A stretch of DNA of 64,000 bases from the NCBI GenBank assembly GCA_903879335.1, contig CAIRLC010000017.1:124001-188000 (forward strand), written 5' to 3'. Below, in pieces: positions 35,084 to 63,191 of the stretch. How positions within the stretch are numbered: position 1 is the first letter of the stretch; the number at the start of each line of letters is the position of its first letter. The position numbers and the translations under genes were made by a program. The notes under the pieces are model-generated. The model worked only from the letters and a program-made list of their open reading frames with translations, searched no databases and was not told where the DNA came from. The DNA comes from an uncultured Pseudomonadota bacterium (GTDB lineage: Bacteria > Pseudomonadota > Gammaproteobacteria > Steroidobacterales > Steroidobacteraceae).

Positions 35084-35365
35084 ATGCTGCGCATCCCCTG
35101 CCCGCACTGCGGGGTTCGCGATGAGACCGAGTTCCGCTACCGCGGCGATGCAACCTTGACTCGGCCGGCGGCGGATGCCGGCGACACTGCGTTCACGCGT
35201 TACGTCTATGAGCGCAACAATCCAAAAGGCTGGCATGCCGAGTGGTGGCTGCATGTCGCGGGCTGCCGCGCGGTACTGCGTGTGGTGCGACATACCGTCA
35301 CCCACGGGATCCACTCAGTGACGTTGCCGCATGAGCCTGCTGACATCCCGGTGGAACTACGATGA
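35084..35365 (+). CDS. soxD: Sarcosine oxidase subunit delta (copy 2)
   Basis: 93 residues. Zinc ligands Cys6 and Cys9 (PCPHC) and His57/Cys61 (LHVAGC) are conserved, with the same spacing as copy 1 apart from a two-residue shift. ATG 35084 is one base after the soxB stop. A longer in-frame opening at 34973 lies inside soxB and is discarded. The stop overlaps the soxA start (ATGA). Confidence 0.92.
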   Translation: MLRIPCPHCGVRDETEFRYRGDATLTRPAADAGDTAFTRYVYERNNPKGWHAEWWLHVAGCRAVLRVVRHTVTHGIHSVTLPHEPADIPVELR

Positions 35366-38301: not shown

Positions 38302-38812
38302 GACCTCCGCGAGCCTGCGTATCGAACGTTCCACCGGTGACGTCGTGGAAGTGAGCGCGCGCCGTGGCCGAGTGCGCGACGTGGACTATGCTGGGCGAGC
38401 ACGTGACTTGAACTTACCAGCACTCGGCAGCGCCACGTGGTCTGACACGTATGTCGCCGCCTCAACACGCCCAGACCGGTGGTGGATCATCGGGCCTGAA
38501 CGTGCGCCGGCTGAAACTGCGGCCCGCATCGCGGGACTCCTCGGCACCGGCGCGATCGTGGTGGATCAATCATCCGGCTTTGAGACCCTCGACCTTGTGG
38601 GTGCAGGCTGGCGCGAACGTCTCGCGCGCAGTTGCCGCCTAGATCTCGACCCTGCCGTATTTGTGCCCGGTCAAGCCGCGGCCACGACCATCGCGCAGGT
38701 CAATGTCATTTTGATCCCGCACCCGTCGGGATTACTGGTCCTCATTCCAGCCACCTACGCGCAGCACCTTCGCGACTGGCTGACTCATTTGTGTGGAGAA
38801 TCGCATTCATGA
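38288..38812 (+). CDS. soxG: Sarcosine oxidase subunit gamma-like (copy 2)
   Basis: 174 residues in the position of soxG. Weakly conserved: WWIIGPERAPAE replaces the LGPDEYLLL block of copy 1, followed by VVDQSSGFETLDLVGAGWRERLARSCRLDLDPAVF, which fits the gamma/GcvT pattern. The start is GTG 38288, preceded by GGAGA and lying 14 bases within soxA; the first in-frame ATG (38180) is inside soxA. The stop overlaps the next start (ATGA). Assignment relies on operon order more than on similarity. Confidence 0.8.
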   Translation: MSAPETSASLRIERSTGDVVEVSARRGRVRDVDYAGRARDLNLPALGSATWSDTYVAASTRPDRWWIIGPERAPAETAARIAGLLGTGAIVVDQSSGFETLDLVGAGWRERLARSCRLDLDPAVFVPGQAAATTIAQVNVILIPHPSGLLVLIPATYAQHLRDWLTHLCGESHS

Positions 38813-41223
38813 AGACATCGGCGCAGGTCGTCATCATCGGCGGTGGTGTGGTTGGGGCCAGTGTCCTCTACCACCTCGCCAAGATCGGCTGGACCGACGC
38901 CGTGTTGCTCGAACAGAGCGAACTCACCTCCGGTTCGACCTGGCACGCCGCGGGCGGCATGCACACCTTCAACGGGGAAGCGAATATCTCGCGCCTGCAG
39001 AAGTACACCATTGATCTCTATCGCGAGATCGAGCAGTTGTCGGGGCAGTCGTGCGGCTTGCACCCGAATGGTGGCCTCATGTTGGCCGCGACCCCGGGTG
39101 AACTCGATTCCCTGAAACTGATCTGCTCACGCGCCCGCTATCTCGGCATGGAAACCGAGATGATCACGATCGAGGAAGCCACGCGCCTTAATCCGCTGAT
39201 CGACCCGCAGTACTTCACCGGCGCGCTGTGGCGCGCCGACGGTGGGCACTGCGATCCCTCCGGCACCACGCATGCGTATGTGAAGGCCGCTCGCGCGCTC
39301 GGCTCCTCGGTGGAGCGCTTCACGCGCGTCGAGCGCCTCGAGCCACGTTCCGACGGCAGCTGGACCGTCATCACCAACAAGGGTGAGATCCACGCCGAGC
39401 ACGTCGTCAACTGCGGCGGTCTGTGGGCCCGGGAAATCGGCCGGATGGTCGGCATCGAGTTGCCGGTGCTCGCGATGGAGCACCATTACCTCCTGACCGA
39501 AGACATCCAGGCCCTCGCCGGTCGCGACAAGGAAATCGTCAACACCACGGATTACTCCGGCGAGATCTACATGCGCCAGGAGCGCGGCGGGGCACTGATC
39601 GGCACCTATGAGCCGAACGGTCATGTCTGGTCGCCGGACACGACGCCGCAAGACTTCTCGATGCAGTTGCTGCCCGATGATTTCGAGCGTCTGGCGCCGT
39701 ACTTCGAGGTGGGCTTCCGGCACTTCCCGGCGCTCGGTCAGGTCGGCATCCGCAAAGCCATCAATGGCCCCTTCACCTTCGCCCCCGACGGCAACCCGCT
39801 CGTGGGCCCGGTGCGGGGCCTGAAGAACTACTGGGTCGCCTGCGCCGTCATGGCCGGCTTCAGTCAGGGTGGCGGCATCGGGCTGATGCTGTCGCGCTGG
39901 ATAGCCGAAGGCGATCCGGGTCAGGACATCCTGTCGATGGACGTGGCGCGCTTCGGCGCCTTTGCCACGCCCAAATACACCTCGATCAAGGTGCCGGAAA
40001 ACTACAGTCGCCGCTTCCGCCTCGCCTACCCCAATGAAGAACTGCCGGCGGCGCGACCGGTGCGCCGCTCGCCGCTGTATGACCGCCTGCTCGCACGCGG
40101 TGCGGTCATGGGGGCGAATTTTGGGCTTGAGCACGCGCTCTGGTTCGCGCCACCGGGCGTTGAAAAAACCGAAACGCCGACCTATCGGCGCTCCGAGGCC
40201 TTCCCCATCGTGCGCGAGGAGTGCCTGGCGGTGCGCAGTCGCGTCGGTGTGTACGAGACCAGCAACTACGGCAAGTACGAGGTCACCGGGGCCGGCGCGC
40301 GCGCGTGGCTTGATCGCGTCTTCGCCTGTCGGATCCCGAAGCCCGGCCGACTGGCGCTCGCACCGATGCTCAATGCCGCCGGTCGCCTCGTCGGCGACCT
40401 GTCGATCGCGTGTCTCGCCGAGGATCGCTACTTCATCGTCGGTTCCGGCTTTGCGGAAGAATTCCACCTGCGCTGGTTCTGGCAGCAGCAGCCGCCGGAC
40501 AATGTCTTTGTGCGCTCGGTCGCCTCGACACTGTGCGGACTGTCCATCGCCGGGCCGCGCGCGCGCGACCTGCTGCAGTCGCTGACCCGCACGGACCTGT
40601 CAAACACTGCCATGCGTCTTTTTGATGTGCGTGAGACGACGGTCGGTTACGCGCCGGTGATCCTCACGCGCGCCGGCTTTACCGGCGAGTTGGGCTATGA
40701 GCTCTGGACCACGCCTGACTACTTTGTGGCCTTGCATGAGGAGATCTGCGTCGCGGGTGAACCGCTTGGGCTCGTGCATTTCGGCGGGCGAGCGCTGTCA
40801 TCCCTGCGTCTCGAGAAAAACTACGGCTCTTTCAATCGGGACTTTCGACCGGATTACACCCCGGCGCAGACTTGGCTCGATCGCTACGTGGACTTCAGTA
40901 AGCCCGATTTTGTCGGCCGTTCAGCGGCGATCGCAGAGCGCGAGGCAGGATCGACGCGTCGCTTCGTGGTCATGGAAGTCGCGGCCCAGGATGCTGACGT
41001 CGTCGGCTATGAATCGATCATAAAGGGCGATCAAGCGATCGGCTATGTCACTTCCGGCGCTTACGGGCACTGCATCGGGCGCAGTCTTGCAGCGGGTTTT
41101 GTGCCAACTCAATACGCCAATGAAGGCGAGGTCTTCACGATCGATATCTTGGGTCATGTGGCCGAGGCGATTGTGCGACTGCGTCCGTTGTATGACCCCG
41201 AGGGACTGCGCTTACGCGGGTGA
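38809..41223 (+). CDS. FAD-dependent dimethylglycine dehydrogenase-like protein (fourth copy)
   Basis: 804 residues. VVIIGGGVVGASVLYHLAKIGWTDAVLLEQSEL and GSTWHAAG with His46 (presumed covalent FAD) mark the dehydrogenase domain; GCVACAVM-type flavin contacts are replaced by VACAVMAGFSQGGGIGLMLSRWI. The C-terminal GcvT domain has AGFTGELGYELW and EKNYGSFNRDFRPDYTPAQTWLDR. ATG 38809 overlaps the soxG stop by ATGA, making it the fifth gene of the second sox operon, whereas in the first operon the DMGDH-like gene is first. The middle of the gene looks more GC-rich than its neighbours. Confidence 0.9.
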   Translation: MKTSAQVVIIGGGVVGASVLYHLAKIGWTDAVLLEQSELTSGSTWHAAGGMHTFNGEANISRLQKYTIDLYREIEQLSGQSCGLHPNGGLMLAATPGELDSLKLICSRARYLGMETEMITIEEATRLNPLIDPQYFTGALWRADGGHCDPSGTTHAYVKAARALGSSVERFTRVERLEPRSDGSWTVITNKGEIHAEHVVNCGGLWAREIGRMVGIELPVLAMEHHYLLTEDIQALAGRDKEIVNTTDYSGEIYMRQERGGALIGTYEPNGHVWSPDTTPQDFSMQLLPDDFERLAPYFEVGFRHFPALGQVGIRKAINGPFTFAPDGNPLVGPVRGLKNYWVACAVMAGFSQGGGIGLMLSRWIAEGDPGQDILSMDVARFGAFATPKYTSIKVPENYSRRFRLAYPNEELPAARPVRRSPLYDRLLARGAVMGANFGLEHALWFAPPGVEKTETPTYRRSEAFPIVREECLAVRSRVGVYETSNYGKYEVTGAGARAWLDRVFACRIPKPGRLALAPMLNAAGRLVGDLSIACLAEDRYFIVGSGFAEEFHLRWFWQQQPPDNVFVRSVASTLCGLSIAGPRARDLLQSLTRTDLSNTAMRLFDVRETTVGYAPVILTRAGFTGELGYELWTTPDYFVALHEEICVAGEPLGLVHFGGRALSSLRLEKNYGSFNRDFRPDYTPAQTWLDRYVDFSKPDFVGRSAAIAEREAGSTRRFVVMEVAAQDADVVGYESIIKGDQAIGYVTSGAYGHCIGRSLAAGFVPTQYANEGEVFTIDILGHVAEAIVRLRPLYDPEGLRLRG

Positions 41224-52152: not shown

Positions 52153-52731
52153 ATGACAGCAGTTGCACAGTTTCGCCAGATGATTGATGGCACTCGCGAT
52201 GATTACGAAATCATTGGTCATCACGAGCATGAGTACGCCAAACACCTGCCTGAACGAATCTTGGAGGCGCTTGCCAAATTAGAAGGCGGCCTTGGAATGG
52301 GCGGCTACCCAGTCACTCGGTATCAACACTCACTGCAGAGCGCGACGCGCGCCCTGCGCGACGGAGCGGATATTGAATACGTGGTCGCAGCGTTGATACA
52401 TGACATCGGCGACGACTTGTCGCCGTTCAATCATTCGGACATCGCAGCCGCCATTCTCAAACCTTACGTTCGGCCTGAAGTGACTTGGGTCGTCCAGCAG
52501 CACGGCTTATTCCAGAGTTACTACTTTGCCCACCACTACGATAAAAACCGAAATGGCCGAGATCGGTTTAAAGATCATCCGTGGTACGACGCCTGCGTCC
52601 GATTTTGCGAACGCTGGGATCAAGCGTCATTTGACCCTGACTATCCGACTGAGCCACTGTCCACGTTTGAACCAATGGTTCGAGAAATCTTCTTGCGCCC
52701 CGCACACGATCCGATCTTCGTCACGACCTGA
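52153..52731 (+). CDS. HD-domain protein, PhnZ/TmpB-like diiron oxygenase candidate
   Basis: 192 residues. The HD pattern has His59 (YQHSLQSA), His83-Asp84 (IHDIGDD), His94, His117 (QQHGLF) and Asp156 (RWD). That is six potential ligands, the number used by HD-domain mixed-valence diiron oxygenases such as PhnZ and TmpB rather than a simple phosphohydrolase. TmpB converts a hydroxylated trimethylammonium phosphonate to betaine and phosphate. The Tyr/Glu pair I recall preceding the first His in PhnZ seems replaced (Met49, Tyr52). It is in an operon with a choline-dehydrogenase-like enzyme. A phosphohydrolase role remains possible. Confidence 0.7.
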   Translation: MTAVAQFRQMIDGTRDDYEIIGHHEHEYAKHLPERILEALAKLEGGLGMGGYPVTRYQHSLQSATRALRDGADIEYVVAALIHDIGDDLSPFNHSDIAAAILKPYVRPEVTWVVQQHGLFQSYYFAHHYDKNRNGRDRFKDHPWYDACVRFCERWDQASFDPDYPTEPLSTFEPMVREIFLRPAHDPIFVTT

Positions 52732-52737
52732 GCCGAT

Positions 52738-53568
52738 TTAGATTCCGGCCGCTTGCATTTCGCGCTCGCGCAGTCGCTCTGCGCGACGCATGAGCACGCT
52801 CGCCAGAATCACACAGACGCCCACGCCGGCGATGATGAGGGTCGCCATCGCGTTGATATCCGGGCTCACACCCAGCTTCACTTTCGAATAGATCACCATC
52901 GGCAGGGTGCTCGACCGAGGCCCTGAGACGAAGCTTGAGATGACGAGGTCATCTAAAGATAGGGTGAACGAGAGTAACCAACTGGACAGCAGGGCCGGCG
53001 CAATCAGTGGCAACGTCACATCAAGAAATGCCCTGGGGCGCGTTGCGCCAAGATCCATCGCGGCTTCCTCGAGGCTCATATCCGCCGATTGGAGTCGAGA
53101 CTGCACGGTCACGGCCACGTACGCCGTGCAGAACGCGACGTGCGACAAAATGACCGTCACCACGCCACGACTCGGCCAGCCCAGTAACTGCAGCATGGAC
53201 ACGAATAACAGTAACTGCGTGATCCCTGTGATGATTTCGGGCATGACCAACGGCGCATTAATCATGCCCGCCAGCAAGAATCGACCGCGGAAAATCGGAA
53301 ACCGAACCAAAGCGATTGAGGCGAGCGTACCGAGCAACACTGCCAAAGTTGAACTTGCGAATGCGATCTCCAAGGAGAGCATCGCGGCTTTGCGAATGTG
53401 CGCATCCTCCAGCAGGGCGGCATACCACTGGGTGGAAAAACCACCCCAAACACTTCCGAGCGCCGAAGCGTTAAAGGAGTAGCCGATCAAAATCAGGATC
53501 GGCACGTACAAAAAAGCGATGCCCAAACAAAGCACGGAGACGAGGGAAATCGGCATGCGCGAGTCCAT
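52738..53568 (-). CDS. ABC transporter permease, spermidine/putrescine (PotC/PotI) type
   Basis: 276 residues with about six membrane helices. The coupling motif is EEAAMDLGATRPRAFLDVTLPLIAPAL, typical of PotC/PotI. ATG 53568 is two bases after the stop of the partner permease. No ATPase or binding protein gene adjoins; it may use the lipoprotein at 8405 and an ATPase outside the window. Confidence 0.9.
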   Translation of the reverse strand: MDSRMPISLVSVLCLGIAFLYVPILILIGYSFNASALGSVWGGFSTQWYAALLEDAHIRKAAMLSLEIAFASSTLAVLLGTLASIALVRFPIFRGRFLLAGMINAPLVMPEIITGITQLLLFVSMLQLLGWPSRGVVTVILSHVAFCTAYVAVTVQSRLQSADMSLEEAAMDLGATRPRAFLDVTLPLIAPALLSSWLLSFTLSLDDLVISSFVSGPRSSTLPMVIYSKVKLGVSPDINAMATLIIAGVGVCVILASVLMRRAERLREREMQAAGI

Positions 53569-53570
53569 AC

Positions 53571-54497
53571 TCAGTACTCCTCCTGACGCACCCTGTAGTA
53601 CTGATGGATCGCGATCGGACCCGCCAATAAGACTAGAAAGGCGATGGCGACCGCCGAGGCCACCGGCCAGTCATGGTTGCCGAAAAACTCATCCCAGAGC
53701 ACGCGGCCGATCATGAGATTGTCGGGGCCACCCAAAAGCGCCGGGATCACGTATTCGCCGACCGCTGGAATAAAGACCAACATCGACCCAGCGATAATCC
53801 CAGGCACCGACAGCGGCAATGTCACGTCGACAAACGCCCGCCATGGGCGGCTTCCTAAATCAGACGCCGCCTCCAATAACGAGCGATCCAGCTTTTCCAG
53901 CGTCGCGTAAAGCGGTAGCACCATGAAGGGTAAGTAGGAGTAGACGATGCCCAGATAGATGGCAAAGGTCGTGTGCATCATCCGCAATGGGTGGTCGATG
54001 ACGCCCAACTGCAGGAGTGCCGTGTTTAATAAGCCATTGTCGCGGATTAGGCTTTCCAAGGCGTAGACACGCAGCAAAAACGAGGTCCAGAACGGCAGGA
54101 TGATGACCATCATCAGAATATTTTGGGTCGACTTTGACGCGCGAGACATGGCGTAAGCCATGGGGTAGCCAACCAAAAGGCAAATCAGCGTCGCGAATAA
54201 CGCGGTTCGCAAGGAATACAGCACGGAGACGATATAAACGTCGTCAGTCAGCAGGTATCGATAGCTGACCCAAGTACCCTGCCAGTGGAGGTGACCGGCC
54301 GCATCCCGACCAAAGAGATCGGTAAACGGCGGGATCCGCAGAGCCGCCTCGCCAAAGCTAATCTTGAGTGCGAAGCCGAACGGGATCAGGAAGAATAAGA
54401 ACAAAAATACCAAAGGCGGCAGGATAATGAACCATCGGCCACGCCGTGCGACGAGCTTCGCCAACTGTCCACCCACCCTCAACCCCCTGAGGAGCAT
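53571..54497 (-). CDS. ABC transporter permease, spermidine/putrescine (PotB/PotH) type
   Basis: 308 residues with an N-terminal helix (FIILPPLVFLFLFFLIPFGFALKISF), a large periplasmic loop, then the six-helix permease core with LLEAASDLGSRPWRAFVDVTLPLSVPG as coupling loop. ATG 54497 is chosen because an upstream extension to 54713 would run through the divergent regulator. Divergent from the TetR-Rieske fusion, which may control it. Confidence 0.88.
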   Translation of the reverse strand: MLLRGLRVGGQLAKLVARRGRWFIILPPLVFLFLFFLIPFGFALKISFGEAALRIPPFTDLFGRDAAGHLHWQGTWVSYRYLLTDDVYIVSVLYSLRTALFATLICLLVGYPMAYAMSRASKSTQNILMMVIILPFWTSFLLRVYALESLIRDNGLLNTALLQLGVIDHPLRMMHTTFAIYLGIVYSYLPFMVLPLYATLEKLDRSLLEAASDLGSRPWRAFVDVTLPLSVPGIIAGSMLVFIPAVGEYVIPALLGGPDNLMIGRVLWDEFFGNHDWPVASAVAIAFLVLLAGPIAIHQYYRVRQEEY

Positions 54498-54579: not shown

Positions 54580-56052
54580 ATGGCCATAAAGAAAGCAAAA
54601 GCCAAACAGGTGGTAACCGCGCGCACGGCGCGTGCGCGCCATCGGCCCCACCTCATCGATGCTTGCATCTCAGCGCTGCACTTGTATGGTCCATCCAAGA
54701 CAACCGTAGACAAGGTGGTCGCGATCGCGGGACTGTCGCCGGGTATCGTTCGGTTCTATTTTGACTCCAAGGACGCCATGCTCGTGGCCTCGCTGGAGTT
54801 TCTTGCCAGCGAATTCGAGCAGACGCTAGTTGTGCCCGTGGCCGCCCAGGTCGGCGATCCCATTGCAGCCCTGAACCTGTTGGTCGACTTGTATCTGGGT
54901 CCTGAGCTCGCAAGTGCCCGCAAAGTGTCGGTGTGGTACTCCTTTTGGGGCGAAGCCAGTTCGCGCCAGGAGTATTACGACATTTGCGGTTCTCGGGATG
55001 CGAAGTTCGAAGCTCTCGTACACGAATTGACTCGGCGGCTTCTGGCGCGCGAACCCGCGAGCGTAGCGGAGCCCGAAGCCATCGCATTGGGCCTAATCGG
55101 TACTTTGGAAATGCTCTGGCAGGGCTTTGCGTTTCAGACCGAGGCGGCCATCGACCGGGCAGCGGCGCGGCGGCAGATGGACAGTTATTTACGCTCGGTC
55201 TTCCCGACTTCGTATGTCCATCAACGTCTGACAACGAACCGACGGCTTCAGACCATTCCCGGCTGGTCCTTCGCGGGCACTGTCGCTGACCTGGCGATGC
55301 CGGGACAGGCGATCGGTGTTGATCGCCAGGGCGACTCCATACTGGTCGTTCGCGGCGCTGATGATCAAATCCGTGCATTTGCAAATCGCTGCCCCGTGCG
55401 ACCACACGGTCTACTGCTCGATCCAAAGCGGCAAATGCTGCGCCGGATTGAATGCCGAATTCACGGCGTAGCCTTCGACCTGAACGGAGCGAATTTCGAT
55501 GCAGCCCACCAGCATCTGCCGTCGCGCCGATGCGTCACCGCAGACGACCTCGTTTGGGTCACGGACGATGAAACAAGCCCACCACCCTCGCCCGCCATCG
55601 CCGCGGCCATCCGTGACACGCCACTGAGCCTAAGCCGGGTCGTCGAGGTCAACGTTACGGCGGACTGGACGGTGTTGGTCGATCTTTGGCGGGGCAATGG
55701 TGCGATCAATGACCGATCAACGAGTCTGGGGCGCATCCCCAGTTGGTCGCAGGATCGCTTCGAACGCCTCACCTCGGAGTTAGATCCAGGTCTGCAGATC
55801 TGGGTCGAGCCTCACCAGATACTCGACTTCGGCCCAGCCGGACTCACCGTCACTGCAATCCTTCCGCGTGGACCCGGGCACACGACGGTGCGGCAGTGGC
55901 GCTACGATCGGTTAGAAAATCCGCAACTCACAAAAATCCTGCGGTACCTTATCAACCGAAATTTCAAACACAGCCTCGTTGTCGCGGCGTCCATTCAGCG
56001 CGGCATACACAACGATGCACTCGTACCTACTCGGTGCGACGCAATTTCATGA
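54580..56052 (+). CDS. TetR (BetI-like) regulator fused to a degenerate Rieske oxygenase
   Basis: 490 residues in one uninterrupted frame. Residues 1-210 are a BetI-like TetR protein: helix-turn-helix TTVDKVVAIAGLSPGIVRFYFDSKDAML (41-68) and a BetI-type ligand domain (VWYSFWGEASSRQEYYDICGSRDAKF, GTLEMLWQGFAF). Residues about 225-330 are a Rieske fold: GQAIGVDRQ, ILVVRGADDQIRAFANRC (Cys271), IECRIHGVAFDLNG (Cys292, His295). The CxH half of the motif reads CPV, so one cluster ligand is missing or moved (His276). Residues about 350-476 resemble the catalytic domain of ring-hydroxylating oxygenase alpha subunits (VTADWTVLVDLW ... NPQLTKILRYLINRNF ... IQRGI) but lack the N-HxxxxH-D iron ligands. 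Probably a ligand-sensing regulator of neighbouring betaine genes, not an enzyme. Confidence 0.85.
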   Translation: MAIKKAKAKQVVTARTARARHRPHLIDACISALHLYGPSKTTVDKVVAIAGLSPGIVRFYFDSKDAMLVASLEFLASEFEQTLVVPVAAQVGDPIAALNLLVDLYLGPELASARKVSVWYSFWGEASSRQEYYDICGSRDAKFEALVHELTRRLLAREPASVAEPEAIALGLIGTLEMLWQGFAFQTEAAIDRAAARRQMDSYLRSVFPTSYVHQRLTTNRRLQTIPGWSFAGTVADLAMPGQAIGVDRQGDSILVVRGADDQIRAFANRCPVRPHGLLLDPKRQMLRRIECRIHGVAFDLNGANFDAAHQHLPSRRCVTADDLVWVTDDETSPPPSPAIAAAIRDTPLSLSRVVEVNVTADWTVLVDLWRGNGAINDRSTSLGRIPSWSQDRFERLTSELDPGLQIWVEPHQILDFGPAGLTVTAILPRGPGHTTVRQWRYDRLENPQLTKILRYLINRNFKHSLVVAASIQRGIHNDALVPTRCDAIS

Positions 56053-56106: not shown

Positions 56107-57597
56107 ATGACAACCATGACTACTCAAGATTGGCACCAGCGCGCAACAACGCTGCGATACCACACGGGACATTTCATCAATGGCGCGCATGAGGCAGGTG
56201 GCTTGGCCCGCTTCTCTGTGACGAATCCGGCGACGGGCCTTGAGTTGTGTAACGTCGCTGAGGGTGACGGCGCGACCGTAGATCGAGCGGTCGCCTCCGG
56301 CCGCGCCGCATTCGCGAGCGGCGTATGGCGTTACATGCCGCCACGTGATCGCATGGCTGTACTGCAGCGATTTGCTGACCTGATTGATGCGCATGCAGAG
56401 ACCTTCGCGTTGCTCGATACGCTATGCATGGGCAAACCAATCCGCGACATGCTGTCCATTGATGTGCCGTCGTCATCGCAGACTTTCCGATATTTCGGCG
56501 AACTTTCAGACAAAATCGATGGCAGCGTCACGAGCACGGCCGCCGACGCGTTCCATTACATCCTGCGCGAACCACTCGGCGTCGTCGGCTGTATCGTTCC
56601 GTGGAATTACCCGTTGCTGATGGCATCGTGGAAAGTGGCGCCGGCATTAGCGGCGGGCAACTCCGTCGTGCTGAAGCCGGCCGAACAGTCCCCACTTTCG
56701 GGGCTACTCATGGCCGAACTCTTTGTCGAAGCCGGCGGCCCAGCGGGCGTATTCAACGTGGTGAACGGCCTTGGGGAATCGGTCGGCGCTGCATTATCGC
56801 TGCACATGGACGTCAATAAGATTGCGTTCACGGGATCGACAGAAGTCGGCAAGCTGATGTTAGTGGCCGCCGGTCGCTCCAATATGAAACGGGTCAGCCT
56901 CGAGTGCGGCGGGAAATCGCCGCAAATTTTCTTACCCGATCTCGGTGACATGGACCGTGCCGTCAGCTACGCCATCAACGGCATTTACGGCAACATGGGC
57001 GAAGTCTGCAATGCCGGCTCACGACTGCTCGTCCATCGCTCAATCGCCGATGAATTTGTGGCGAAGTTTTGTGCCGCCGGTCGCGACGCTTATCGAGCCG
57101 GCGACCCGTTGGATCCCAACACGAACCTTGGCCCATTGGTCACCGCCTCACACTGTAACCGCGTGGCCGGGCTGATCGAAACCGGTATCCGTGAGGGCGC
57201 CAAAGTGGAGTTCGGCGGCGACCGTCCAGCCCTACCCGGCGCTTATGTGAATCCAACGCTGTTCTCTGGGGTCACGAACCAGATGACCATCGCGCGCGAG
57301 GAGATTTTCGGGCCGGTCGCGTCCGTCATCGTATTTGATGATCTGGCCGAGGCAATTCGCATTGCCAACGATTCCATCTACGGTCTGGCCGCCTCGGTTT
57401 GGACGCGTGATCTCGTGACGGCCCATAAGACCGTCCGCGCCTTGGAAGCTGGAATCATTTGGGTCAATTGCTTTGATCACGGCGACATGACTCAGCCGTT
57501 CGGTGGTTACAAGCAGTCGGGACAAGGACGCGACAAGTGCCTTGAAAGTCTGCTGAGCTACACCCAGACCAAATCAGCCTGGGTGCATTTGGGCTAA
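56107..57597 (+). CDS. Aldehyde dehydrogenase, betaine aldehyde dehydrogenase-like
   Basis: 496 residues. Catalytic Cys301 (MGEVCNAGS), Glu266 (SLECGGKSP), cofactor motifs PWNYPLLMASWKVAPAL and FTGSTEVG, and C-terminal FGGYKQSGQGRDK. Similar in layout to BetB and gamma-glutamyl-aminoaldehyde dehydrogenases. Start ATG 56107 with GGAG upstream (56116 is an alternative Met). It follows the TetR-Rieske fusion by 54 bases and is convergent with the Rieske oxygenases. Oxidation of betaine aldehyde or formaldehyde-linked amino aldehyde is likely but not certain. Confidence 0.9.
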   Translation: MTTMTTQDWHQRATTLRYHTGHFINGAHEAGGLARFSVTNPATGLELCNVAEGDGATVDRAVASGRAAFASGVWRYMPPRDRMAVLQRFADLIDAHAETFALLDTLCMGKPIRDMLSIDVPSSSQTFRYFGELSDKIDGSVTSTAADAFHYILREPLGVVGCIVPWNYPLLMASWKVAPALAAGNSVVLKPAEQSPLSGLLMAELFVEAGGPAGVFNVVNGLGESVGAALSLHMDVNKIAFTGSTEVGKLMLVAAGRSNMKRVSLECGGKSPQIFLPDLGDMDRAVSYAINGIYGNMGEVCNAGSRLLVHRSIADEFVAKFCAAGRDAYRAGDPLDPNTNLGPLVTASHCNRVAGLIETGIREGAKVEFGGDRPALPGAYVNPTLFSGVTNQMTIAREEIFGPVASVIVFDDLAEAIRIANDSIYGLAASVWTRDLVTAHKTVRALEAGIIWVNCFDHGDMTQPFGGYKQSGQGRDKCLESLLSYTQTKSAWVHLG

Positions 57598-57608: not shown

Positions 57609-57638
57609 ATCGCTCGGAGTCAGCGCACTCCGAGCGAT
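57609..57638. terminator. Bidirectional hairpin between convergent ALDH and Rieske gene
   Basis: Perfect 12-bp stem ATCGCTCGGAGT / ACTCCGAGCGAT with loop CAGCGC, extended outside by CCGCC/GGCGG. It overlaps the last codons of the Rieske gene and has no T run, so a bidirectional stem-type end is likely. Confidence 0.5.
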
Positions 57639-58795
57639 TGGCGGACCCACTCTTGGAACCGCCAAACATCGTATTCCTCGGGCATCAGCGTGCCATGCGT
57701 ATGGGGCGCGGCATGTAAACCGCGCTGCGCCAACTCGCAGACGGCGGCGTCTTCCTGCATGACCCTTGCCGAGAAATTGCAGGCGTTCATGATATCCACG
57801 CTTGAATCCGCCAAGGTCTCTCGAGGAAACAGCCACTCAATCTCCAGCTCGGTTTCCTCGGAGCTCAGGGCCAAAATTCGTGACGACCGCACATGGTCCA
57901 CGTGCAGTACCAAATAGTGCGATGGCAGGCTCGTCATATAGTGATAGCCCAAAGCGCGCTCCGCCTCGGTCAATTGTGAAAACTCATGACCAAGCGACTC
58001 GCCATTTGTGCTCCATGTGACGGCACCCGCCTTTAATCCACCTTTGTACAGTGGATCTTGGCGATCGGCAGTGGACCGCCAATTCGGATCATCACGCTCC
58101 TCCATGATGCCGCGTCGATAAATAGGTACCGCATCAATGAGACTCGGATGCACGGCCGGACAATGCAGGCACTCGTTATAGTTTTCCCAGAATACTTTCC
58201 AGTTACACCGAATACGCTTCGTCAGCCGATGACCGACCACCAGATCCTCGAGCGGCCAGTGATCGAATAACTGCAAATTTGCATTGAAGTTATCACCGAG
58301 CGCCGCGCCCTCGCCGGCAAGGTTGACGTAAACAAACCCGCGCCAAACCTTCACAGCGATCGAGTGTAAGTGTGTGTTCGCGATATCAACAAAATGAGAA
58401 CGACCAGCGTTTGGGATTCGCGCCAGTTGGCCATTCAATCGATAATTCCACGCGTGATAGGGACACGAGATACCCGTCGGGGGTAATCGACCCGATGCAT
58501 CGCTGCACAATGTAGCGCCGCGATGACGACAGGCGTTATAGAAGGCCCGAATATCTCCAGACTCGTCGCGGAGCAGGATTACAGGCTGGCCGACCAGATC
58601 GAAGGTCCGATATGAGCGAGTGTCGGGTAGTGAGCCCGCGCGACAGAGGTAAACCCATTGTTTGGACCAGATGTCTCGCAGTTCCCGCTGGTAGTGGTCC
58701 TGATCAAAGTACCAATGACTTGGCAGCGTATCGACTCGTTGCCTGAGACCATTGAAGTCGCCCGCCGTTGGATCGGATGGGTGTTCATGACTCAT
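57620..58795 (-). CDS. Rieske oxygenase alpha subunit, glycine betaine monooxygenase (GbcA)-like
   Basis: 391 residues. The Rieske centre is Cys89-x-His91 and Cys111-x2-His114 (NACRHRGA, CPYHAW). The catalytic domain has NWKVFWENYNECLHCPAVHP (bridging Asn and the two iron His) and the C-terminal acidic ligand region MQEDAAVCELAQRGL. AVHPSLIDAVPIYRRG resembles the GbcA/stachydrine demethylase group, which N-demethylates betaines. It lies 14 bases after the other Rieske gene on the same strand. No reductase (GbcB-type) gene is in the window. Confidence 0.9.
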   Translation of the reverse strand: MSHEHPSDPTAGDFNGLRQRVDTLPSHWYFDQDHYQRELRDIWSKQWVYLCRAGSLPDTRSYRTFDLVGQPVILLRDESGDIRAFYNACRHRGATLCSDASGRLPPTGISCPYHAWNYRLNGQLARIPNAGRSHFVDIANTHLHSIAVKVWRGFVYVNLAGEGAALGDNFNANLQLFDHWPLEDLVVGHRLTKRIRCNWKVFWENYNECLHCPAVHPSLIDAVPIYRRGIMEERDDPNWRSTADRQDPLYKGGLKAGAVTWSTNGESLGHEFSQLTEAERALGYHYMTSLPSHYLVLHVDHVRSSRILALSSEETELEIEWLFPRETLADSSVDIMNACNFSARVMQEDAAVCELAQRGLHAAPHTHGTLMPEEYDVWRFQEWVRQSLGVR

Positions 58796-58809: not shown

Positions 58810-59955
58810 TCAGGGGGCAAAACGCTCAGGCGTTTTCGGAAGTCGGACTTCAGGGATCGCGCGCTCGAGCAGATCATGAAACTCAAACATCCACTTTTCG
58901 AGTGCGGATAAAGGTCCGGGGGTATAACTGGAGGATTGAAGTCCGCGCTGTACGCGCTCGCACAGCCATCGGTCTTCCGCATTGACGGCGGCGTTGATCC
59001 TGGTACCCAACCACCGTAACGCACGAATTTCCCGTCGCGTGTCGGACTGGCCAAACAATGCATAGCGAATCGAACACCGCCCGGGACCACGCGGCAAAAT
59101 CTGAAAGAAATCCATCTGCTCGGGATACAGATCGATACCGAGATTGGGTAGTCCACTGTAGAAGCGCCATGACTTCTGGAGTTCATCTGGCATATCCATT
59201 GGGGTCCGTGCCAGTAGCGTTTGATAAGCCCGCTCACTCCAGCGTGACGATGGGGCCTCACGCAACCAACCAATTCCGCGGGCGAAACCGGGGAAGCCGC
59301 GCTGGTCTTCATAGTCGGGTGTAGTCAGCCGGTTGAGACCAGGGTGACCGATCGGAACATGGTAGGACTCTAGATAGTTGTCCATCGCGATCTTCCAATC
59401 CACGTCCCAATGTTCTACCCCGATCGGACCCAAGGGCAGCATGGTTTCGATACGGTAAGGCGAAAGTTCAGGCAGTAGCGGGCCCCAGACGTCATGCAAG
59501 CTCGCAGGCGGCTCGTCCGCAAGACAGACAAACACGAGCCCTAAGATGGTGTCGACATGGGCGGGCTTTAGCCCATGCGCCTCGCGGGCCAAGCCGGGGA
59601 AGGTGTCTCTGAGAGGCACGCCCGTCAGGCGCCCATCGTACTGATAACTCCAGCCGTGGTACGGGCACACGATCAGACCCTGGCAATGGCCTTCTCCGTC
59701 GAGCAAACGCGCACCACGGTGGCGGCAGACGTTATGGAACGCTCGAATAAGACCGTCGCGATCACGGACAACGATCACACTGTCTACGCCGAGATCGACC
59801 GTCAGGTAATCGCCGGGCGTCGGTATGGAATTGATGTGGCAGGCAATTTGCCAACTGGGCCGAAGGACGCGCTCAGTCTCCAGACGCGTCATTTCCGGGT
59901 GGTTATACACCCAAGGAGGTAGGGCCTGATGAGGGACGGAACTAGGGTTCGTCAT
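58810..59955 (-). CDS. Rieske oxygenase alpha subunit
   Basis: 381 residues. Cys77-x-His79 and Cys97-x2-His100 (NVCRHRGA, CPYHGWSY) hold the [2Fe-2S] centre; DWKIAMDNYLESYHVPIGHPGL supplies bridging Asn and iron His residues; NAEDRWLCERVQRGL carries the acidic ligand. Both catalytic sites are intact, in contrast to the TetR fusion nearby. ATG 59955 follows GGGAG. First gene of a two-gene operon, divergent from the aminotransferase, with a TATACGATCGT site 19 bases upstream. Substrate: an aromatic or quaternary amine compound. Confidence 0.9.
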   Translation of the reverse strand: MTNPSSVPHQALPPWVYNHPEMTRLETERVLRPSWQIACHINSIPTPGDYLTVDLGVDSVIVVRDRDGLIRAFHNVCRHRGARLLDGEGHCQGLIVCPYHGWSYQYDGRLTGVPLRDTFPGLAREAHGLKPAHVDTILGLVFVCLADEPPASLHDVWGPLLPELSPYRIETMLPLGPIGVEHWDVDWKIAMDNYLESYHVPIGHPGLNRLTTPDYEDQRGFPGFARGIGWLREAPSSRWSERAYQTLLARTPMDMPDELQKSWRFYSGLPNLGIDLYPEQMDFFQILPRGPGRCSIRYALFGQSDTRREIRALRWLGTRINAAVNAEDRWLCERVQRGLQSSSYTPGPLSALEKWMFEFHDLLERAIPEVRLPKTPERFAP

Positions 59956-59973
59956 TCCAAGGCTCCCGATTTG

Positions 59974-60162
59974 TATACGATCGTTCAATCTACGCGCTGA
60001 ATAGCCAGCACCGCAAGACCTAGCAGCGCACGCTGCACGGGTCTTACCATCCCAATAATTGTCTATATTGATGATTTTTATAACTATTAAATCCGATTGC
60101 CGGTCGCAATTGGTAACCGAGCCATTGCTGCGGTGCGCCAAAAATGGTTTCTATACGATCGT
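59974..60162. promoter_or_regulatory. Paired TATACGATCGT sites in divergent promoter
   Basis: The 11-mer TATACGATCGT, with palindromic core ACGATCGT, occurs at 59974-59984 (context TTG...TTCAA) and 60152-60162 (context C...ACAAAA). One copy lies near the Rieske start, the other 85 bases before the aminotransferase. The form suits a TetR-family operator; the fused BetI-like regulator is the obvious candidate (inference). Confidence 0.55.
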
Positions 60163-60246
60163 ACAAAATCGCGTGGACGCAACGGCATCGGAGTGCTAGC
60201 GTCGCACTCTGTCACACACCTCTCCTTTGAACTGCCGGAGCTTTTC

Positions 60247-61578
60247 ATGCCGCGCGATCTCACTCGAAGTAATGAACACTTTAAGAAGGCAGTGACTCGC
60301 CTCCCACTCGGTGTCGCATCTAACTTCCGGTATTGGGGCGATGACCGAACGATTTACGTCAAACAAGGTCGTGGCGCGCGCGTCGAAGACATCGATGGCA
60401 ACCACTACGTCGACTATCGACTCGGCTACGGTCCGGCGATTCTTGGCTATGCTCATCCTGAAGTCGACGCCGCGGCCCGTGAGGGCATGGACGTCGGTGG
60501 CGTTTTCGCACTCGCCACCGAACGGGAGTTCCGGGTGGCTGAACGCATCTCCAAAATGGTGCCCGCGGCCGAACTGGTGAGGTACTCCAATTCCGGTACT
60601 GAGGCCGTCATGGCTGGGCTGCGCCTCGCGCGCGCCTACACCGGTCGCGACGAATACATCATCCTAGAAGGCAGCTATCACGGCCTCTTTGATGCGGCCA
60701 TGTGGTACACCCCAATGGAGAAGTGGTCACAGAGCGGCGAACCGGAAGTGGCCCCATACAGTCAGGGCATCCCCCTCGGCGTACGCAGCTTCGCTCACTT
60801 TGTGCAGGCCAACGATCTCAATCAGCTAGAAGAGACGTTCAAACGCACTGCAGGTCGCATCGCCTGTCTGCTGATCGAACCCATTATGGGTAACTGCTTA
60901 GGTATCGCGGCCGACCCGGAGTATTTACGCGGTGCGCGCGCCCTCTGCGACAAATACGGCGTATTGCTGTTCATTGACGAGGTAAAGACCGGATTCCGAG
61001 TGGCACGCGGCGGAGTCCAGCAGCTGTACAACGTCCATGCGGATATTTGCACCTTGGCCAAGGCAGTTGCCAACGGCTACCCGATTTCTGTGGTCGCCGG
61101 GCGCGAAGAGATCATGCGCAAATTTGGCAAGGGCGTAGCCCACGGCGGCACCTACACTGCGCATTCCGTGTCGCTCGCGGCTGCTGAGAAGTGTCTCGAG
61201 ATCCTCGACGAAACCGACGCGCTTGAGCGTATCGCCGATTACGGCACGCGCCTGATGCAGGGCATGACAAAAGTACTGTCAGCCCGCAACATCGCTCACA
61301 GCTTCGTCGGTCACCCGTCGATGCTGGGCCTTTATTTCGATGCTCAACCGCCACGGAACTATCGGACATGGAAGAGCAGCGATTACGCATTCTATGATGC
61401 TATGGCGCAGGTGTTGCATGACGAGGGCGTCCTCTGCGAACCCGACTCGCGTGAACCGTGGTTTATCTCAGCGGCACACGACGAGTCGTGCCTGAACGAC
61501 ACGCTGAAAGGGTTTGAGGTGGCAGTCGACGCCACGCTCGAAGCTCGCGCGTCCGGTCAGCTCGAAAAGCACGGTTAA
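60247..61578 (+). CDS. Class III PLP aminotransferase (glutamate-1-semialdehyde aminomutase-like)
   Basis: 443 residues. PLP Lys272 in LAKAVANGYP; cofactor motifs SNSGTEAVMAGLRLARAYTGR, GSYHGLFDAAMW and LFIDEVKTGFRVARGG. The family moves amino groups between an omega-amino compound or aminoaldehyde and a keto acid. ATG 60247 is used for its GGAG and family N-terminus; a 50-residue upstream opening has no support. It is in an operon with two CrtI-like flavoproteins and divergent from the Rieske pair, so it may process a product of amine oxidation. Confidence 0.9.
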   Translation: MPRDLTRSNEHFKKAVTRLPLGVASNFRYWGDDRTIYVKQGRGARVEDIDGNHYVDYRLGYGPAILGYAHPEVDAAAREGMDVGGVFALATEREFRVAERISKMVPAAELVRYSNSGTEAVMAGLRLARAYTGRDEYIILEGSYHGLFDAAMWYTPMEKWSQSGEPEVAPYSQGIPLGVRSFAHFVQANDLNQLEETFKRTAGRIACLLIEPIMGNCLGIAADPEYLRGARALCDKYGVLLFIDEVKTGFRVARGGVQQLYNVHADICTLAKAVANGYPISVVAGREEIMRKFGKGVAHGGTYTAHSVSLAAAEKCLEILDETDALERIADYGTRLMQGMTKVLSARNIAHSFVGHPSMLGLYFDAQPPRNYRTWKSSDYAFYDAMAQVLHDEGVLCEPDSREPWFISAAHDESCLNDTLKGFEVAVDATLEARASGQLEKHG

Positions 61579-61583
61579 AACAT

Positions 61584-63191
61584 ATGGGCAGTACGAGAAC
61601 CAAGGAACATGATGTCATCGTGGTCGGCGCCGGCCACAACGGTCTCGTCGCTGCCTGCTATCTGGCCCGCGCGGGGTTAGACGTCTTAGTCGTCGAACGT
61701 AACGACTACATTGGCGGTGCCGCCGTAAGTCGCAACTTATTTGAAGATTTCACGTACTCAAATTGTTCGTACGTCTGCAGCCTGTTGCGCCCAGAAATCA
61801 TGCGCACGCTCGAACTTCCGAAACACGGCTTGCAAATCATTCCCTACGATTCGGGCTGCACGATGATGCGCGGCGGCGGCCATCTGGCCCTGTACGACAA
61901 CCATGACGCCTTGCGGCGGGAGATTGCGCGCCACTCTTCTCGCGATGCTGAAGCCTACGACCGCTACTCACGCGATGTGATGCGTCAGTGCAAATTCATC
62001 CGCCCTTTACTGCTGCGCGAGCCACCCGATCCGACGTCGTTTAAGCCGAGGGATCTGAATGAACTGCTCTACCTAGGTGCCCGATTTAATGGCATGGGCG
62101 AGCAAAGAATGTATGACACCCTCCGATTCTGGACGATGTCTGCGGCCGACTTCCTTGATGAGTACTTTGAGAGCGAAATCGTCAAAGCGCACTTTGCCGG
62201 CAGCTCCATTATCGGAACGGCCCTCGGCCCGCGCTCGCCAGGCAGCGCGTACGTGCTCCTCCATCATTACATGGGGGATATCGACGAGACCGTCGGTGCG
62301 TGGGGCTTTGCCCGTGGCGGGATGGGCTCGGTTACCGCGGCCCTGACCTCATCGCTGCGCGCAAGCGGTGGCGATGTGCGCGTATCCGCGCCCGTTGATC
62401 ACGTACTGGTGCAAGGTAGCCGGGCCCGGGGCGTCGTACTCGAGTCCGGCGAAGAAATTCGGGCGCGCGTGGTTATCTCCAATATGGATGTCAAGCGCAC
62501 GTTCCTCAATTGTGTGGCACCAGAACACTTACCCGAAGATTTTCTGACGGCCGTTCGGCGTTTCAAAATTCGCGGCTCGTCGGGCAAGTTAAATATTGCC
62601 TTGGATGGGCTACCCTCATTCCCAGCCATTCCGGCGGGCAGCCCGGCTATCCGCGGTGATATGCACATCACGGATACCCTGGAAATGATGGAACGCGCCT
62701 ATGACGACTGGAAAGAAGGTCGCTGGTCGCGGGCGCCGTATGTCGACATGCTGATGCCTTCCCAAATCGATCCGACAATGGCGGCTGATGGCAAACACTA
62801 CATGTCCGTTTTTGTGCAGTACTGCCCGTATGAATTGGCCGACGGACCGTGGACCGATGAAAAACGCCAGGCCTTCGGCAACACAGTCATCGATGCCATT
62901 GCCGAGCATAGCCCGGACTTCAAGAGTTTGATTCGGCACGCGGAAATTCGCACGCCGTGGGATATCGAACGGGAAGTTGGCCTCACGGAAGGCAATATCT
63001 TCCAAGGCGAACTCACGATGGATCAATTGTTGTTCAATCGCCCAGTGCCCGGCTATGCCCAATACCGAACACCGGTCAAAGACCTCTACATGTCGGGCTC
63101 ATCCACACACCCAGGGGGTGGCGTAATGGGAGCACCGGGCGCCAACTGCGCACGTCGCGTGCTGGCTGACCTGGGACGGGTTTCAGCATGA
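61584..63191 (+). CDS. FAD-dependent oxidoreductase, phytoene dehydrogenase (CrtI)-like
   Basis: 535 residues. N-terminal FAD motif VIVVGAGHNGLVAACYLARAGLDVLVVERNDYIGGAA and C-terminal YMSGSSTHPGGGVMGAPGANCARRVL are the CrtI/NAD(P)/FAD family landmarks. Characterised relatives desaturate carotenoids, but this N- and C-terminal style is also common in flavoproteins of unknown function, and no other carotenoid gene is present. It starts five bases after the aminotransferase stop; its stop overlaps the next gene by ATGA. An amine or amino acid derived substrate is inferred from the operon. Confidence 0.85.
   Translation: MGSTRTKEHDVIVVGAGHNGLVAACYLARAGLDVLVVERNDYIGGAAVSRNLFEDFTYSNCSYVCSLLRPEIMRTLELPKHGLQIIPYDSGCTMMRGGGHLALYDNHDALRREIARHSSRDAEAYDRYSRDVMRQCKFIRPLLLREPPDPTSFKPRDLNELLYLGARFNGMGEQRMYDTLRFWTMSAADFLDEYFESEIVKAHFAGSSIIGTALGPRSPGSAYVLLHHYMGDIDETVGAWGFARGGMGSVTAALTSSLRASGGDVRVSAPVDHVLVQGSRARGVVLESGEEIRARVVISNMDVKRTFLNCVAPEHLPEDFLTAVRRFKIRGSSGKLNIALDGLPSFPAIPAGSPAIRGDMHITDTLEMMERAYDDWKEGRWSRAPYVDMLMPSQIDPTMAADGKHYMSVFVQYCPYELADGPWTDEKRQAFGNTVIDAIAEHSPDFKSLIRHAEIRTPWDIEREVGLTEGNIFQGELTMDQLLFNRPVPGYAQYRTPVKDLYMSGSSTHPGGGVMGAPGANCARRVLADLGRVSA

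Follow-up and report, generated by a model that had tools for sequence, protein, structure and literature searches.

The window, a 64,000-nucleotide stretch of DNA from an uncultured bacterium of the Steroidobacteraceae, carries at 54580..56052 on the plus strand a gene for a protein of 490 amino acids that begins as a TetR-type repressor and continues as a Rieske oxygenase (RHO). Its frame is open throughout, as a first-pass annotation of this DNA had stated. The TetR part (54652..55203, +) is composed of TetR_N at residues 25-70 (26 bits against a Pfam cut-off of 24) and the "BetI-type" TetR_C_6 at residues 94-208 (39.8 bits against 27), such that both the helix-turn-helix and the C-terminal domain of the TetR family score above their cut-offs. 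The assignment of this part to a BetI-type TetR protein therefore stands for the two domains, but its likeness to BetI is only a broad one: the protein falls below the equivalog cut-offs for BetI (68.5 versus 201.3 bits for TIGR03384 and 61.9 versus 118 bits for NF001978). With BetI and other TetR repressors it shares 210 N-terminal residues that hold TetR_N and TetR_C_6, and with BetI a cluster that includes choline-dehydrogenase-like and betaine-aldehyde-dehydrogenase-like genes, whereas its sub-threshold equivalog score and 270 extra residues set it apart.

These extra residues contain a Rieske domain at residues 229-306 (55264..55497, +; 35.9 bits against a Pfam cut-off of 20.3), so that the match whose absence had been named as evidence against the fusion is in place. 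They also contain a shortened RHO catalytic-type domain at about residues 338-478 (55591..56013, +), from which the HxxxxH segment is deleted. When searched alone, the last 153 residues give no Pfam match above cut-off. A profile built from 37 tails of the family nonetheless aligns along the full length of RHO alpha subunits in the PDB, the top matches being CntA (6y9c, E 2.8e-36) and the stachydrine demethylase Stc2 (3vca, E 3.3e-28). This end-to-end alignment places a Rieske and a catalytic domain in one chain, and bears out the claim of a shortened oxygenase domain. The structure prediction that had been proposed as a check gives the same picture: the tail as modelled by AlphaFold2 (pLDDT 86.9, pTM 0.83) adopts the RHO fold, including the Rieske fold, and resembles RHO alpha chains with TMq values of 0.57-0.72 among the 50 Foldseek matches listed. 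The full-length model has a pLDDT of 84.3 and a pTM of only 0.55, too low to place the tail against the TetR part with confidence. Descent of the C-terminal part from a quaternary-amine-type Rieske oxygenase is thus supported. Like the group V enzymes CntA, GbcA and Stc2, the tail has the RHO fold and aligns over its full length, and it has in common with CntA a histidine five residues after the first cysteine; unlike those enzymes, it lacks the histidine at Cys+2 and the HxxxxH segment, and is attached to a DNA-binding protein.

Two ABC permease genes lie on one side of the fusion gene, the first PotH/PotB-like (53571..54497, −; start codon picked from sequence) and the second PotI/PotC-like (52738..53568, −). 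On the other side are an aldehyde dehydrogenase gene, PuuC/betaine-aldehyde-dehydrogenase-like but below the cut-offs (56107..57597, +), and two genes for intact Rieske oxygenase alpha subunits, as annotated previously: RHO2 (57620..58795, −) and RHO1 (58810..59955, −), the latter GbcA-like and below the GbcA cut-off. These are followed by a class-III aminotransferase-like gene (AT; 60247..61578, +), whose nearest model is GntE at a score below its cut-off, and by an FAD-dependent oxidoreductase gene (61584..63191, +) that is CrtO-like but far below cut-off. The neighbourhood is conserved, with two polyamine-type permeases on one side and, on the other, one or two intact RHOs, the aminotransferase and FAD oxidoreductases, joined in part of the loci by the aldehyde dehydrogenase. 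Neighbours of amine type comprise a choline-dehydrogenase-like GMC protein, the betaine-aldehyde-dehydrogenase-like ALDH, the GbcA-like RHOs, the polyamine-type permeases and a sarcosine-oxidase-alpha protein. None reaches the curated cut-off of the model for which it is named, and together they suggest that the substrate of the pathway may be an amine.

Several further genes of the window deserve mention. About 16 kb from the fusion locus, the region 35362-41223 contains the sarcosine-oxidase-alpha family gene (1087 bits, cut-off 1164), followed by a GcvT/dimethylglycine-dehydrogenase-like frame that was named partly by reading. An HD-domain oxygenase-like gene, weakly similar to PhnZ/TmpB, is found at 52153-52731 and in many of the related loci.

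A search for the same fusion in other genomes, suggested in the first-pass annotation, shows that it recurs. One scan of genome contigs yielded 58 loci. Real relatives make up 51 of these (L001-L051); the other seven (L052-L058) are weak TetR-only loci and were left out. All 51 come from metagenome-assembled Proteobacteria, and five are assigned to the Steroidobacteraceae. In 40 of the 51 there is a fusion whose Rieske motif is complete, although one of these (L006) has an in-frame stop after that motif; such a fusion is also present in three further genomes (L087-L089). The remaining 11 comprise L047, in which Rieske box 1 is deleted, four loci with short tails, five in which the TetR gene is unfused, and one that ends at a contig edge inside the TetR part. 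Ten of the 51 loci have thus truncated or lost the tail, which appears to be dispensable in places. Before alignment A1 was made, 14 of the 51 rows were removed: L006 for its in-frame stop; L019, L028 and L051 for contig ends; L030, L041, L042 and L049 for short tails; L047 for the box 1 deletion; and the unfused L044, L045, L046, L048 and L050. For the motif count, L006, L019 and L028 were returned and L087-L089 added.

We considered that the five unfused loci, where an RHO gene precedes a standalone TetR gene, might preserve the ancestral separate parts, and rejected the idea because the RHO there is the intact RHO1. The TetR proteins of these loci nest within the fused ones, and their unfused state hence represents losses. 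Of 296 genomes drawn from the order, 32 have a fused or unfused match at E ≤ 1e-60, and 31 of the 32 belong to the window's own family. A class-wide draw of 369 genomes at E ≤ 1e-40 gave 16 genomes with matches and three full-length fusions. Among 398 genomes drawn from the phylum (E ≤ 1e-60), 22 have matches and none has a full-length fusion, and the family therefore seems narrow.

The most constant feature of the tail is the Cys/His quartet of its Rieske site. Box 1 of the window protein (55390..55407, +) reads C271-P-V-R-P-H276, and box 2 (55453..55464, +) is C292-x-x-H295. The first-pass annotation was correct that Cys271-Pro-Val replaces CxH and that Cys292 and His295 are retained, but it overlooked His276, the Cys+5 residue. 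All 44 rows (38 aligned rows plus six further complete motifs) have Cys271, His276, Cys292 and His295, and the four are among the only nine strictly invariant columns of the 276 in the tail, a coincidence with a probability of 5e-7 if columns were interchangeable. Measured against the cluster ligands of CntA, which are reported to be Cys86, His88, Cys106 and His109 (PMC7948474), three members of the canonical C-x-H and C-x2-H set are present in the window and the fourth is replaced: Cys+2 is Val, and a residue other than His in 37 of 44 rows. Of the 38 aligned rows, 32 have R, V, Q, A, E, I, S or K at this position (273) and six have His; overall, His occurs in seven of 44. The box 1 loop is gapless in the alignment, and Pro275 is present in 37 of 38 rows. 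The Cys+5 His is also found in CntA, in six of seven TetR proteins fused to an intact RHO (see below) and in three of ten other RHOs, and in none of 14 RHO1, four RHO2 or two tandem-RHO rows. From these counts it appears that a histidine which does not serve as a ligand in CntA became fixed while the usual ligand drifted. The pattern suggests that the Rieske site is re-registered rather than dead, a metal site in a new register being the best reading. Alternatively, the four residues may have a structural role or form a disulfide.

The mononuclear iron site of the catalytic domain has been lost in the window. The CntA helix that bears the bridging Glu and two His is retained in the tails through "DWKxxVEQWLE" and is then cut. 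In the window the HxxxxH segment falls in the deletion and the Asp position is Ser, so that the 2-His-1-Asp ligands are missing, in agreement with what had been read from the sequence at first. Only four of 37 tails have an HxxxxH after the WK region; it is in place, two residues early, in L033 and L035 only, and lies elsewhere in the tail in L003 and L004. CntA is reported to bind quaternary ammonium through Tyr203 (PMC7948474). When positions are paired by reading the CntA profile alignment, the Tyr203 position is Trp in 29 of 38 rows (Trp370 in the window), and the position of the bridging Glu205 is Glu in 25 of 38 rows and Gly in the window. The tail is best read as a module without catalytic function that a regulator has recruited. 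The earlier proposal of a dead oxygenase recruited as a sensory module is thus upheld in its recruitment into a regulator without catalysis, and is too simple in calling the Rieske part dead, where four invariant Cys and His residues are found.

Two degenerate fusions, at L033:2488-4155 and L035:800-2530, keep CxH (with His273), CxxH, the early HxxxxH and, by alignment reading, an Asp at the third-ligand position. L033 is the first branch among the degenerate rows of the TetR tree. Both look like possible intermediates of decay.

Seven genomes encode a TetR protein fused to an RHO in which C-x-H, C-x2-H and HxxxxH are all intact. Four were found in the order draw (G155, G077, G289 and G085) and three in the class draw (G634, G414 and G507). 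The genes lie at L098:7444-9300 (+), L099:9033-10880 (−), L100:2197-4041 (−), L101:198-2051 (−), L102:1489-3468 (−), L103:1420-3303 (+) and L104:1171-3231 (+). In all seven, TetR_N, TetR_C_6, Rieske and Ring_hydroxyl_A score above their Pfam cut-offs, and thus these relatives, unlike the window protein, combine a DNA-binding domain and a complete enzyme domain in one chain. Several lie near genes of the window's pathway. A counterpart of the window's aminotransferase, 65-67% identical, is present in six of the seven genomes and shares a contig with the intact fusion in G155, G077, G634 and G414; in L098, the HD-domain oxygenase-like gene is directly downstream of the fusion. In three of the seven genomes (G085, G289 and G077), only the fused RHO closely matches the window's RHO1: it ranks first at 41-43%, and the next RHO is at most 36% identical. 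Another close RHO exists besides the fused one in G155, G634 and G414, and in G507 the fused RHO leads at 38%.

The TetR tree unites every fused protein, whether intact or degenerate, with the family's unfused and short-tailed proteins in one clade (98/94), a result to be read with caution for the long rows L126 and L108. The RHO tree has long branches and gives no clear placement of the degenerate tails relative to the intact ones; its 12 degenerate rows, the window included, come from 14 named loci, those missed by the collecting search being absent. In the same tree, the fused RHO of L104 is placed beside a separate RHO (L106), apart from the other six intact fusions. The existence of seven genomes with TetR fused to a fully intact RHO indicates that a repressor-enzyme fusion probably came first. 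The simplest story would be a single fusion of TetR to a working RHO, which served as a PutA-like repressor-enzyme in some lineages, became a pseudoenzyme in the window's clade, and was later truncated or lost in the 10 loci noted above. Standalone TetR genes at L140:149-934 (−), L142:18383-19087 (+) and L118:1462-2145 (−) are sister to the fused clade; they adjoin the aminotransferase in genomes that also hold an intact TetR-RHO fusion.

A candidate operator is found at the pathway genes. The palindrome TATATGnnCATATA is present between the RHO and aminotransferase genes in all 34 loci that have this gap. A symmetric motif search of the RHO1(−)/AT(+) gap returned TTTATATGnnCATATAAA in 34 of 34 gaps, the window included, with a log-likelihood of 620.7 versus 87-92 for three shuffles; the best scores within the excised gaps range from 12.8 to 34.1 bits. 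When all 719 kb of L001-L051 were scanned at 17 bits, sites were found in 38 loci, often two in each, and a single match (L014:410) lies outside the RHO1/AT gap or the edge of the RHO1/AT matches. The 13 siteless loci have no RHO1/AT gap in the available DNA; most of their contigs stop short of it, and in L030, L035 and L036 RHO1/AT genes were not found beside TetR. In the window, candidate operator O1 (59970..59991; 12.8 bits) is 15 bases upstream of the RHO1 start at 59955, and O2 (60148..60169; 21.4 bits) is upstream of the aminotransferase start at 60247. Across the 3.14 Mb genome from which the window derives, the core pattern matches exactly at two places, both in the RHO1/AT gap, and with one mismatch at two more, both elsewhere. 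In the window, the palindrome is absent from the interval that separates the fusion gene from the permease gene.

Wherever the gap is available, the palindrome is kept in loci with a missing or truncated tail, which indicates that binding to DNA would not depend on the tail in those loci. A LysR gene occurs in 11 of 51 loci. Both the loci with an unfused TetR and many loci in which LysR was not found retain the site, a distribution that points to the TetR part as the protein that would bind the palindrome. We consider it probable that the palindrome is an operator, and its assignment to the TetR of the fusion is inferred from context. The strong motif returned by the first operator search was rejected, since by position and letters it sits inside the permease coding sequence, and the gap upstream of the fusion gene has a weaker motif in a subset of loci. 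For the intact fusions, a TGAATGAA word in six of 13 gaps and palindromes in G414 are hints only, and the matrix of the window's clade finds no site of at least 14 bits in the nine intact-fusion stretches scanned.

Taken as a whole, these observations might be explained by a one-component repressor of the TetR family whose sensory module was made from a retired Rieske oxygenase, an explanation that we hold to be about as likely true as false. A TetR dimer would bind the RHO1/AT palindromes and repress the aminotransferase-FAD genes as well as RHO1 and, along with it, RHO2. In its old active-site pocket, the pseudo-oxygenase would bind a substrate or product of the amine-type pathway, while a metal or [2Fe-2S] centre on Cys271, His276, Cys292 and His295 could stabilise the module or report redox or iron state. 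The bound state would then be relayed to the TetR core and cause release of DNA. As to the ligand, the Trp at the position of CntA Tyr203 and the amine-type neighbours are hints, and only hints, of a quaternary amine. It is also possible that the BetI-type pocket of the TetR core itself is the only sensor.

The last possibility has a stronger form, which we regard as unlikely, in which the tail is a vestige, still decaying, of an earlier repressor-enzyme and senses nothing, and a TetR core with a BetI-type pocket does the regulating. Such decay would be consistent with the truncation or loss of the tail in 10 of 51 loci and the internal stop in an eleventh (L006), and with the far greater conservation of the TetR part, whose mean pairwise identity is 74%, compared with 40% in the Rieske part and 33% in the remainder. 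Values of dN/dS also favour relaxation: in the five closest pairs they are 0.09-0.31 for TetR, 0.12-0.55 for Rieske and 0.27-0.54 for the rest. Among the 12 pairs listed, more distant ones reach 1.3 in the tail, values that were set aside as unreliable because synonymous sites are near saturation. However, the tail domains remain below 1 in all five closest pairs, and the tail is thus under purifying but relaxed selection. Also speaking against a relic are the constancy of four Cys and His residues in 44 of 44 rows amid neighbouring positions that vary freely, and the retention of Trp370 and the WK motif in most rows.

Alternatively, the tail could be a pure redox or iron sensor that uses a Rieske-type or altered cluster and binds no small molecule, which we judge to be quite improbable. 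The constancy of the Cys/His quartet is what this reading would predict, and the Rieske scaffold can be redesigned to hold mononuclear iron, so that it tolerates other iron sites, according to a review (PMC2946596). The review also states that an archaeal Rieske ferredoxin no longer assembles its cluster once Cys replaces the His equivalent to position 273, which weighs against a cluster here, and the conserved Trp370 hints that a pocket has been retained. A related and more specific proposal is that the first His ligand moved from Cys+2 to Cys+5 and that the resulting C-x4-H...C-x2-H Rieske site senses redox state, iron or oxygen in a TetR repressor descended from a bifunctional repressor-oxygenase, one that performs and regulates its own pathway step and survives in related bacteria. 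We offer this only tentatively, as a doubtful but specific possibility.

At least as improbable as a pure redox or iron sensor is a docking role, in which the tail would join the head-to-tail trimers of RHO1/RHO2, or their reductase, and the level or redox state of the enzyme would pull the repressor off DNA. CntA is reported to be an alpha3 trimer (PMC7948474), and the tail retains the overall RHO fold and adjoins the RHO1 and RHO2 genes. However, the helix that has degenerated bore a bridging residue of the interface in CntA, and this Glu is replaced by Gly in the window. Finally, an artefact of assembly or frame that joins two genes, a sequencing error of the kind named at the outset as a possible objection, has practically no probability, since the fusion recurs in 40 of 51 loci and three more genomes with tails only 20-47% identical to that of the window, and we found no point in its favour.

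IscR and RsrR are iron-sulfur regulators of the Rrf2 family. The window protein resembles them as a DNA-binding protein for which a Cys/His-ligated centre is possible, but it belongs to another DNA-binding family, and IscR and RsrR have no Rieske fold. The statement in the first-pass annotation that no regulator with this arrangement had been described is consistent with our full-text literature search, which misses most subscription journals: no TetR-Rieske regulator is described among the matches listed. One candidate match, PMC8552027, was discarded as unrelated to such regulators. If the proposed mechanism is correct, the tail would represent a new kind of sensory domain for one-component regulators, and possibly a new ligand pattern for the Rieske fold. 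Several stages on the path from an enzyme fused to a repressor to a pure sensor would have present-day examples, and the series from intact fusion through partly decayed fusion and pseudoenzyme sensor to lost tail would make visible how an enzyme turns into a sensor.

Each intact TetR-RHO fusion would be a repressor with a Rieske oxygenase in the same chain. By analogy, the window regulator might act as a one-component repressor whose sensor derives from an enzyme. The intact branch might resemble trifunctional PutA, in which a DNA-binding domain is fused to a proline catabolic enzyme (PMC5293562). PutA and the seven intact fusions both unite a repressor and a pathway enzyme in one chain; they differ in that PutA pairs a ribbon-helix-helix domain with a flavoenzyme, as opposed to TetR with a Rieske oxygenase, and the enzyme part in the window lacks its catalytic ligands.

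Two other arrangements were encountered. A 302-codon frame of another family (L108:1276-2181, −) encodes TetR with a short Rieske remnant, and only its TetR domains score above Pfam cut-offs. In two genomes of the window's family, frames of 707-711 codons (L123:1177-3309, +; L124:16-2136, −) encode a BetI-type TetR protein fused to a betaine aldehyde dehydrogenase. TetR_N, TetR_C_6 and Aldedh exceed their Pfam cut-offs in both, and the PRK13252 scores are 789 and 779 bits (cut-off 593), by which these proteins are identified as a second repressor-enzyme fusion.
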